Shown here in pieces: positions 23,022 to 25,625 of a stretch of 64,000 nt of DNA. A program made the position numbers and the translations under genes. The notes beneath the pieces are model-generated. The model was not told where the DNA came from. It saw only the letters and a program-made list of their open reading frames with translations, and made no database searches. The DNA is taken from contig NZ_FXUB01000001.1 of NCBI RefSeq assembly GCF_900182835.1, positions 124,001 through 188,000 of the forward strand. The letters run 5' to 3'. Origin of the DNA: Desulfurobacterium pacificum. Its GTDB lineage: Bacteria; Aquificota; Aquificia; Desulfurobacteriales; Desulfurobacteriaceae. Position 1 is the first letter of the stretch. Every line of letters begins with the position of its first letter.

Positions 23022-23864
23022 CTAAATCTCCTCTATTGCGGTTTGTGACTTATCAAAAACCTCATCTATTACTTTAAACATTACATCATCTCTTACTTTA
23101 GCATATCTTGCAGAAGTATTCGGAGATGCATGTCCCAAGAAAGCTTGAATTACTCTTATGTCTACTCCTCTATCAACTAAAAGCGTAGCGAAGGTGTGGC
23201 GGAGTTTGTGAGGATGGAGGTAAATGCCTGTTTTCTCTTTTATTTTGTCAAAGACGTACTTAGCACCGTGGTATTTAAGGGGAAAGAGCCGCTCACCTTC
23301 TAAATTTTTAATGTAATCCATAAGTTCTTTGGCTAATTCGCTGGGTAGAGGAATAAACCTTTCTTTGTTACCTTTTCCCAATACTTTGAGGACTTTTCTT
23401 CCTTTTACAGTAATTATGTCATCTCTTTTAAGGTTTAAAGCTTCAGAGATACGCAGCCCGCAGTAAAGGATTGTTTTTATTAGAAGGTAATCTCTCTGAG
23501 AGCGTTGTTGGGCGGCGGTGAGGATTTTTTCTACTTCTTCCTCTGTGAGGGCTTCGGGGATTTTTTGCTTTACTTTTTTTATCCTTAAGGACGGCTTAAA
23601 TGGATTAGAGCTTATTACTTCCATATCTACAAGAAAGTTGAAAAAGGTGTTTAAAGCTGACATTCTCCTGTTTATTAAAGATGGACTGCAATCAAGGGAG
23701 GTTCTAAAAATCATAATATCAGCAGTTCTGATTTCAGACACATTTTTGTCACCGATAAGCTCTCTAAATTTGTTTAGGTCACTTTTGTATTCCTTTATCG
23801 TCCTATGAGCTAATTCCTTAGATTTAAATTTTAGGAATAATTCTATTGCTTGGGACAATTTCAT
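23022..23864 (-). CDS. xer: Tyrosine recombinase of the XerC/XerD/XerH type
   Basis: 280 residues from the ATG at 23864; a start 12 bases further up is possible, but TGGAGAG lies properly before the inner ATG. Residues 1-85 are the SAM-like core-binding domain. The catalytic set is intact: Arg in YCGLRISEAL, Lys in LGKGNKERF, HKLRH (His and Arg), His in FLGHASPNTS and the nucleophile Tyr in SARYAKV. Xer enzymes resolve chromosome dimers at dif. A perfect 28-base palindrome lies 167 bases upstream (24031-24058), in the composition-switch zone. A single-recombinase system (as XerS or XerH) would fit, but a second xer elsewhere cannot be excluded. Confidence 0.92.
   Translation of the reverse strand: MKLSQAIELFLKFKSKELAHRTIKEYKSDLNKFRELIGDKNVSEIRTADIMIFRTSLDCSPSLINRRMSALNTFFNFLVDMEVISSNPFKPSLRIKKVKQKIPEALTEEEVEKILTAAQQRSQRDYLLIKTILYCGLRISEALNLKRDDIITVKGRKVLKVLGKGNKERFIPLPSELAKELMDYIKNLEGERLFPLKYHGAKYVFDKIKEKTGIYLHPHKLRHTFATLLVDRGVDIRVIQAFLGHASPNTSARYAKVRDDVMFKVIDEVFDKSQTAIEEI
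23510..23566 (+). repeat. Two G-rich/ATTTTT motif copies inside xer
   Basis: GGCGGCGGTGAGGATTTTTT ends at 23530 and CTTCGGGGATTTTTT ends at 23566, both with the G-rich end first on the plus strand, 470-520 bases before the candidate dif and pointing to it. Confidence 0.55.
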
Positions 23865-24030
23865 CACACTCTCCATTAAATTTTATGGTAAATGAAACAA
23901 ACGTCAATATATTTCTTCTACCTTCAGTCTGATAGGTTGTTATACCTGAAACGCAAAATAAGGCGAATATATCAACGGTTAGCATTTTATCGCCCTTTTA
24001 CAGCAATTTTAGTTCTATTTTATCCAATTC

Positions 24031-24058
24031 CCCCTAACAAATGTCAATTTGTTAGGGG
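24031..24058. repeat. Perfect 28-base palindrome, candidate dif site
   Basis: CCCCTAACAAA (24031-24041), centre TGTCAA, TTTGTTAGGGG (24048-24058): two 11-base arms and a six-base centre, the geometry of a classical dif site. The innermost T/A pairs extend the symmetry to 12 bases with a four-base loop. The inner arm TTTGTTA resembles the TTATGTTA of known dif half-sites. Alternatives are an operator for the xer operon (a minus-strand TTGACA overlaps the right arm) or a terminator, although no plus-strand gene ends here and only a short T-run follows. Confidence 0.45.
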
Positions 24059-24129: not shown

Positions 24130-24912
24130 ATGGAAAACTATAACTTATCAACAGAGCTTAAACCCAACCAAGATGTAGTATTGTATGAGGGTCATAACCA
24201 TAAAGTTGTATACTTGGGAACAAGAGGAATTAATACTGGAGCGGAAGCTGTTGACGTTTTATCTTATTTGATAATAGATGAGGGAGAAGCTCTTTTAATT
24301 GACCCAGGAGGATATCACCTCTTTTCTTATTTAGTTTTCAAGATATCCAAATACGTTAATTTGGATTCTATAAAGTACATCTATTTCTGTCATCAAGACC
24401 CAGATGTATGCGGTTCACTTCCGATGTGGAAGGATGTATGTCCTCAAGCTAAAATAGTTATAGGTGAACTATGGGTAAGGTTTTTGCCTCACTTCGGGGT
24501 AGAAGATGTATCCAAAAGAGCAATGCCAATTCCTTTCAAAGGAGGCTACATTAATGTAGGAAAGACCCCTATTGAAGTAATTCCTGCGCACTATTTACAC
24601 TCTCCAAACCATTTTAGTCTCTATGACCCAGTTTCTAAGTTTCTCTTTTCGGGTGATTTAGGAATAGCTTTAGGGGAGTTTAATTATTTGATAGTTAAAG
24701 ACTGGGTGGAACACCTTGAGTATATATATACACCTCATAGAATTCTCATGGCAAACAACAGAGCAGCAAGAGCGTGGGTTAACAGAGTAAAGAATAAAGA
24801 TATAAAAGCTATACTACCCCAACATGGGGCTATAATGGTTGATAGAGATGTTAAAAACTATCTTAAATTCATGGAGAACTTAAAATGCGGAACGGACTTG
24901 ATAAAAGATTGA
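24130..24912 (+). CDS. Oxygen-binding di-iron protein (ODP), metallo-beta-lactamase fold
   Basis: 260 residues: the metallo-beta-lactamase half of a flavodiiron protein with no flavodoxin domain. The first metal motif is HQDPDV, where flavodiiron oxidases have HxExDH, so the last His is missing; the other ligands are present (HSPNH, FSGDLG, LPQHGA). This ligand change is what characterises the ODP group, in which the Treponema denticola protein binds oxygen stably and signals instead of reducing it. The next gene, overlapping by 28 bases, encodes a soluble chemoreceptor signalling fragment, the same partnership as in Treponema. Confidence 0.8.
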   Translation: MENYNLSTELKPNQDVVLYEGHNHKVVYLGTRGINTGAEAVDVLSYLIIDEGEALLIDPGGYHLFSYLVFKISKYVNLDSIKYIYFCHQDPDVCGSLPMWKDVCPQAKIVIGELWVRFLPHFGVEDVSKRAMPIPFKGGYINVGKTPIEVIPAHYLHSPNHFSLYDPVSKFLFSGDLGIALGEFNYLIVKDWVEHLEYIYTPHRILMANNRAARAWVNRVKNKDIKAILPQHGAIMVDRDVKNYLKFMENLKCGTDLIKD

Positions 24913-25625
24913 TTGACGAAATATCAGAATCTTTGTCACACTTAGAAAGGGGAACGCTTTCAATAAAGGAAGTTTCTAATGTTATATCTAAGTTAGTAGA
25001 ACAGGTAGAGAGTATTTTCGTAAGGAATAATCAAATCCTTTCTAAGGATGTTGAAATTCTTTATGAGGTTTCAGGAGATTTAAAGGGATTTGTAAAAGAA
25101 TTTAAACCTATCATAGACCAGATGTCTATAATCTCAGAAGAATATGAAAGTCTATTAGAAAGTTTAAGCAAGATTAGAGATTATTTGGAAAATATAGAAG
25201 GGATTGCAAGTCATACCGAACTTATTGCTATTAATGCTTCAATTGAAGCTGCACGTGCCGGTGAAAGCGGCAGGAATTTTGCAGTAGTGGCTAATGAAAT
25301 AAGAAGTATGGCAAAGAACACATTTCGCTCTATAAATGAAATAAAGGAGTTGGACAAAGAAATTGAACCCAAATTGACTGCTCTAAAGCACAGTATTGAT
25401 GCTATGAGGAATATTCAAAAGAAGATGGATCAATTAATGGAAGATATAAATCAAGTAATAAAGATATCTGATGAACTAAAAGAAATAAGCACTGTGCAGT
25501 CAAAGGTTGTTGAAGAAGTAAGGGGTTTATCCGGAGTGTCTGCTGCTATTAAGCGTATAAATGAAATTTTTAGGAAGGCACAGGGTATACTTGCTTTGAC
25601 TTTTTCTCGTGTGTTTTCTCGTTAA
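24885..25625 (+). CDS. Soluble methyl-accepting chemotaxis signalling protein without a sensor domain
   Basis: 246 residues, no membrane span and no ligand-binding domain. The hairpin tip AINASIEAARAGESGRNFAVVANEIRSMAKN near residue 115-150 is the CheA/CheW-contacting part of receptors; the rest is coiled coil. GGAG stands eight bases before the ATG. It needs an outside sensor, and the overlapping di-iron protein gene upstream supplies one, so it probably relays oxygen or iron status to the chemotaxis kinase or another histidine kinase. No che genes are in the window. Confidence 0.85.
   Translation: MRNGLDKRLIDEISESLSHLERGTLSIKEVSNVISKLVEQVESIFVRNNQILSKDVEILYEVSGDLKGFVKEFKPIIDQMSIISEEYESLLESLSKIRDYLENIEGIASHTELIAINASIEAARAGESGRNFAVVANEIRSMAKNTFRSINEIKELDKEIEPKLTALKHSIDAMRNIQKKMDQLMEDINQVIKISDELKEISTVQSKVVEEVRGLSGVSAAIKRINEIFRKAQGILALTFSRVFSR

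Follow-up and report, generated by a model that had tools for sequence, protein, structure and literature searches.

The window, that is, the whole stretch of 64,000 nucleotides analysed from the genome of the thermophile Desulfurobacterium pacificum, contains a tyrosine recombinase gene, xer, on the minus strand and a 28-base palindrome upstream of it. The palindrome is intergenic and lies between xer and a divergent gene for an ODP-type metallo-beta-lactamase on the plus strand. These and the smaller features of the locus are listed in Table 1. In G000 and G014 an ODP-family protein and a short MCP signalling protein adjoin the site, as in a two-gene oxygen chemoreceptor.

Table 1. Features at the xer locus, in window coordinates.
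Feature	Position	Strand	Description
xer	23022..23876	-	Tyrosine recombinase, 284 aa (280 aa from second ATG, 23864); catalytic R-K-HxxR-H-Y conserved
Second promoter candidate	23880..23907		Closer to xer than the TTGACA/TAAAAT pair
Bipartite element	23902..23977	.	14-mers in inverted orientation, CGTCAATATATTTC and CGAATATATCAACG, with a 48-bp gap; lies between xer and the site
Possible -10, TAAAAT	24017..24022	-	19 bp from TTGACA, toward xer; 17-18 bp in other genera; putative function
dif-like site	24031..24058	.	Two perfectly symmetric putative Xer half-sites, CCCCTAACAAA / TTTGTTAGGGG, around TGTCAA
Centre, TTGACA (xer strand)	24042..24047	-	Asymmetric; presumed strand-exchange region giving polarity; perfect -35 hexamer facing xer
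ODP-type gene and MCP gene	24130..25625	+	ODP-family protein and short MCP signalling protein

The palindrome and the recombinase gene

As read from the window, the palindrome is CCCCTAACAAATGTCAATTTGTTAGGGG. A first-pass annotation of this DNA had described it as perfect over 28 bases, which it is, and as laid out 11-6-11. That layout stands as an alternative cut with TGTCAA at the centre, but the true symmetry is 12-4-12, with perfect 12-bp arms flanking GTCA and reaching one base further inward on each side. The 11-6-11 boundary is drawn by analogy with dif sites described before, which likewise span about 28 bp and have 11-bp inverted arms on either side of a 6-bp centre. The arms fit the known dif consensus over short stretches only, as had been annotated.

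No other perfect palindrome with arms of at least 12 bases was present in the window. Since 0.15 such palindromes are expected in 64 kb under a first-order Markov model of the window (loop 0-8), symmetry alone is weak evidence. The exact motif had no occurrences in shuffles, and the whole 1.59-Mb genome contained a single copy with up to 3 mismatches allowed. Unlike most dif sites, the D. pacificum palindrome is not GC-poor: its G+C content is 12/28 (43%, against about 37%), while the commonest form in relatives has about 21%.

The product of xer is the sole PF00589 protein in the D. pacificum genome, which is 99.9% complete. The gene had been annotated as intact, in agreement with the complete set of catalytic residues of a Xer-type tyrosine recombinase (R-K-HxxR-H/W-Y). 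Residues R141, K167, H222, R225, H248 and Y257 (numbering of the aligned xer translation) were invariant in nine relatives. The annotated distance of 167 bases between palindrome and gene is correct from the second in-frame ATG (MKLSQ, 23864), but shrinks to 154 bases when counted from the first ATG (23876). Scores against the XerA, XerC and XerD models were about equal (173.7, 172 and 168 bits) and each lay below its cut-off; the NCBIfam equivalog cut-off for archaeal XerA is 220 bits, so the protein falls outside that class. With the XerS model the score was 73.6 bits, where the cut-off is 267. By sequence, the nearest solved structures were the XerC-like chain 4a8e, an archaeal XerA and the best match, and then XerD 1a0p; the XerH chain 5jjv matched weakly.

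Conservation, linkage and position of the site

Orthologues of xer were found in 18 of the 22 Desulfurobacteriaceae genomes. All 17 genomes with sequence upstream of xer (seven genera) had exactly one site, always upstream of the gene and 52-193 bp from its aligned start, a linkage as in XerS/difSL and XerH/difH. In the remaining xer-bearing genome, G020, a contig end cuts xer, and one core site is found on another contig. The site was absent from all four family genomes without an xer orthologue (G001, G007, G009 and G016, the last only 62% complete). The expectations of the first-pass annotation, one copy per chromosome and presence in relatives that keep xer, were thus borne out.

In a scan of 136 genomes of the phylum, the consensus matched once in each of 15 family genomes and once elsewhere. 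This last match (G098, 2 mismatches) was discounted because it equals the rate in the reversed control. The site variants of G000, G014 and G020 fall outside the scan consensus and were detected by separate searches. The related family f4 has a Xer of 41-47% identity, and no similar palindrome was found next to its gene.

Columns of the site were 89% conserved, compared with 40-47% in the flanks. The outer arm bases covaried, being CCCCT..AGGGG in genus g1 and ACTAT..ATAGT or ACCAC..GTGGT elsewhere. Complementarity was retained in 97% of arm cells, a level reached in 0 of 500 shuffles, with slid controls at 34-57%. In genus g4 one arm is altered (TTTTCTATAGT versus TTTGTTATAGT), breaking the stem at two adjacent positions; arm symmetry is therefore usual and not required. 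The TTGACA centre was kept in most genera; G005 and G006 have it reversed in place. At these two loci (L014 and L015) the central GTCA is reversed relative to xer, which is consistent with template switching at the palindrome.

Gene order at the locus was partly kept: TamB, TPR and HIT lie on one side, g20704 and ftsZ on the opposite side. In genus g7, xer and the site are inverted as a block relative to their HIT/TPR neighbours, and the site is still upstream of xer. The ODP gene of G017 lies about 9 kb from the site, which remains with xer, and in G018 and G019 the ODP gene is at a distant other locus. The inversion in g7 and the distant ODP gene in G017 indicate that the site belongs to xer and not to its other neighbours. 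Inserts of about 3-10 kb adjoin the site at the g7 loci L285/L286, L009 and L088; that of L286 carries a chemotaxis-like cluster and that of L088, judged by eye only, a possible nucleotidyltransferase-toxin-like gene.

Coding-position skew was read on the plus strand whatever the gene direction, which removes gene-orientation bias, and in relatives skew was based on 20-kb samples. In D. pacificum, the gene-strand-corrected GC skew was positive in all five 20-24-kb segments before the site and negative in all 17 after it. At fourfold sites, each gene between 11.3 kb and xer, with xer included (+0.49), had a positive GC skew; the two genes after xer were near zero, and most of those from 25.6 kb onward were negative. 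The cumulative maximum of this skew was at 23.9-25.6 kb of the window, within about 1.7 kb of the site. The palindrome had been placed in a composition-switch zone, and the fourfold-site skew does change sign there. Among relatives, A-T skew flipped between the two 20-kb segments abutting the site in G012, within 20-40 kb of it in G017 and within about 70 kb in G019. In G018 the flip fell between samples at 841-861 kb and 1010-1030 kb, with the site at 912 kb. In G018, whose chromosome measures 1683 kb, dnaA and the site are 905 kb apart; in the 1.7-Mb G012 the separation is 834 kb. Both distances are about half a genome. A site at the skew switch, as had been predicted, was thus found to within about 1.7 kb in D. 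pacificum and at sampling resolution in four relatives, with dnaA opposite in two.

Among polar oligomers, GTTGTT was polar in all five genomes, and no strong KOPS-like polar octamer was common to the five beyond base skew. Oligomers resembling TACGCTTAGAGGTACGC were strongly one-sided in the sampled segments of G012 (for example GAGGTACG, 72 to 1), and probably reflect a one-sided repeat array, for instance a CRISPR. In G009 (L181-L200), complete as a single contig of 1.54 Mb, both the site and any PF00589 protein were missing, and A-T asymmetry between the strands was almost absent along the chromosome, unlike in its xer-bearing relatives. Loss of Xer and blurred replichore polarity in this genome may be connected.

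A candidate dif and competing readings

We suggest, with a probability of roughly 90%, that the palindrome serves as dif for an Xer system with a single recombinase, as the first-pass annotation had proposed. This reading rests on the uniqueness and conservation of the site, its co-occurrence and linkage with xer, the gene order, the terminus position marked by the composition switch, the coupled arm changes, the intact catalytic set and the lack of detectable FtsK. Binding, cleavage positions, dimer resolution and autoregulation are predicted from these features. One Xer monomer would bind each 11-bp arm, and the arms would be mirror images and covary because one protein serves both. Where sister chromosomes are fused into a dimer, the two sites would meet at the terminus and Xer would cut at the edges of the central TGTCAA. 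The asymmetry of this centre, which reads TTGACA along the xer strand, would set the orientation and force parallel alignment, and strand exchange by Xer would then yield two monomer chromosomes. Synapsis would be achieved by another factor, or by Xer alone as in archaeal XerA. Points against the dif reading are the short match of the arms to the known consensus and the G+C content of the D. pacificum site. A further one is that no recombination event was found in the form of an integrated element, IMEX or plasmid copy; three site patterns had 0 matches in viral contigs.

In addition to acting as dif, the site may take part in the control of xer. Its centre and right arm would form the xer promoter, with TTGACA as the -35 box, and bound recombinase would repress the gene. 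A promoter-like arrangement, TTGACA followed by TAAAAT or TAGAAT at 17-19 bp, is present in genera g1, g3, g4, g5 and g6 and in part of g2. It is absent from g7, G002, G005 and G006, and in D. pacificum a second promoter candidate lies closer to xer. From these patterns a secondary role in promoter control appears plausible in several genera, and we put the odds of such dual use at somewhat less than even.

An alternative is that the site is an operator only, at which Xer or another repressor controls xer, and that the true dif lies elsewhere. The constant position upstream of xer and the resemblance to a promoter would fit this, and because the site and xer are always linked, the terminus position cannot fully separate a dif from an xer operator at the terminus. 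However, the site is intact without a following -10 in g7 (G018, G019 and G021), G002, G005 and G006, it is retained in G005 and G006 though its centre is reversed, and its distance from xer varies. An operator would also leave unexplained why xer is at the terminus in every genome tested. We therefore consider this reading improbable. Operators had been named beforehand as a main rival to dif, and of these only the xer version survives, at low confidence; one for a flanking gene is contradicted by synteny.

The other rival named, an intrinsic transcription terminator, would account for the perfect 12-bp stem with a 4-base loop followed by ATTTTAG on the plus strand. It is extremely unlikely, since the site lies between divergent genes, so that no upstream plus-strand gene could end there, and follows xer through the g7 inversion. 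Moreover, a terminator scan made no call at the palindrome, relatives show no T-run on a consistent side, and the stem is broken in g4. Comparison of the hairpin with Rfam gave sub-threshold matches only, and an Rfam identity was rejected. An operator for the ODP/MCP operon, suggested by the position of the site 71 bp upstream of the ODP gene, can be dismissed on synteny, as that gene adjoins the site in G000 and G014 only and lies apart from the site in G017, G018 and G019.

Relation to known systems and the element between site and xer

FtsK is a DNA pump used by most bacteria for chromosome dimer resolution. The FtsK_gamma domain was found in 0 of the 22 family genomes, compared with 8 of 14 control genomes. 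Matches to the FtsK/SpoIIIE motor occurred in six family genomes and were all partial, and the family genomes that were tested yielded no true FtsK. Since no FtsK was detected in the family, synapsis at the putative dif would have to be FtsK-independent. The best FtsK-like protein of D. pacificum is a 652-aa ATPase of the HerA type (DUF87) that carries a PLD domain at its N terminus (L305:634-2592); a HerA-like pump might substitute for FtsK.

The putative dif shares with XerCD/dif of E. coli and B. subtilis its 28 bp, 11-6-11 geometry, terminus location and catalytic set. It differs in having one PF00589 protein and no FtsK_gamma, whereas XerCD/dif has two recombinases, unlike arms, FtsK-gamma control and a dif unlinked to the genes. 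XerH/difH of Campylobacter and Helicobacter and XerS/difSL of streptococci and lactococci consist of one recombinase and a terminus dif adjoining its gene; the enzymes have about 354-362 aa and are FtsK-dependent, and the sites are partially dyad-symmetric (PMC5357621, PMC2731167). The single recombinase, the terminus location and the adjoining site are alike here, but the protein has 284 aa and an XerS score far under the cut-off, no FtsK was found and the arms are fully symmetric. XerL/dif of Legionellales also relies on one recombinase, and its dif contains long inverted repeats that are not interrupted. In L. pneumophila, xerL is more than 400 kb from dif, and the catalytic tyrosine is residue 389 (PMC9765430), so XerL is a longer protein. 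The likeness to XerL, drawn from its description and not from its sequence, lies in the single recombinase and the long inverted repeats; unlike in XerL, the site and xer are less than 200 bp apart in every case.

Archaeal XerA/dif has a single Xer, no FtsK and a dif at the terminus (PMC2958812, PMC8371274), and XerA synapsis is reported to be FtsK-independent (PMC2958812). In Sulfolobales dif is near xerA with a short conserved flank, and in Thermococcales it is flanked by inverted repeats (PMC2958812, PMC8371274). The single Xer of similar size, the lack of FtsK and the terminus site are shared with our system. However, its host is bacterial, the archaeal arms are imperfect repeats and the score is under the XerA cut-off. 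By these comparisons the system would act like dif/Xer and fits none of XerCD, XerS, XerH and the XerA equivalog as tested. In the literature searched, including dif surveys, we found no dif in Desulfurobacteriaceae, and no bacterial system combining a linked, fully symmetric and FtsK-free site.

The site and gene would define an Xer/dif system in Desulfurobacteriaceae (phylum Aquificota), and suggest that a bacterium without FtsK can retain a linked dif that is served by a single recombinase and located strictly at the terminus. One 284-aa protein and one 28-bp symmetric site would make a compact, probably heat-stable model for Xer control without the FtsK pump, a question that stands equally for archaea. 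The pair of xer and site could also serve as an anchor to locate termini in draft genomes of the family.

Between the site and xer, the bipartite element was kept in 13 of 17 genomes as CGTYRATATATTTC..48-50 bp..GAAATATATYRACG, at variable distances of 26-95 bp from the site and 0-81 bp from xer. With a strict version of the pattern, the only matches among the family genomes were those at the xer locus of G000 and G005. In samples of DNA from six family genomes, the convergent pairs were at the xer locus; other pairs were few, divergent and probably due to chance. The element thus appears to be single-copy at this locus. An RNA reading, with 12 predicted pairs, was rejected; the ATATATT core hardly varies and column 5 has no partner, which is in better accord with DNA half-sites. 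The element may be an xer operator region or an accessory recombination sequence. By analogy with the cer/psi accessory sequences, a host protein would wrap the pair of inverted CGTYRATATATTTC sites, whose spacing of about 63 bp corresponds to six helical turns, and so make a fully symmetric dif directional in an FtsK-free bacterium, with only sites in a dimer recombining; we regard this accessory role as conceivable, if rather doubtful. Genus g4, which is without the bipartite element, has an asymmetric core site instead.
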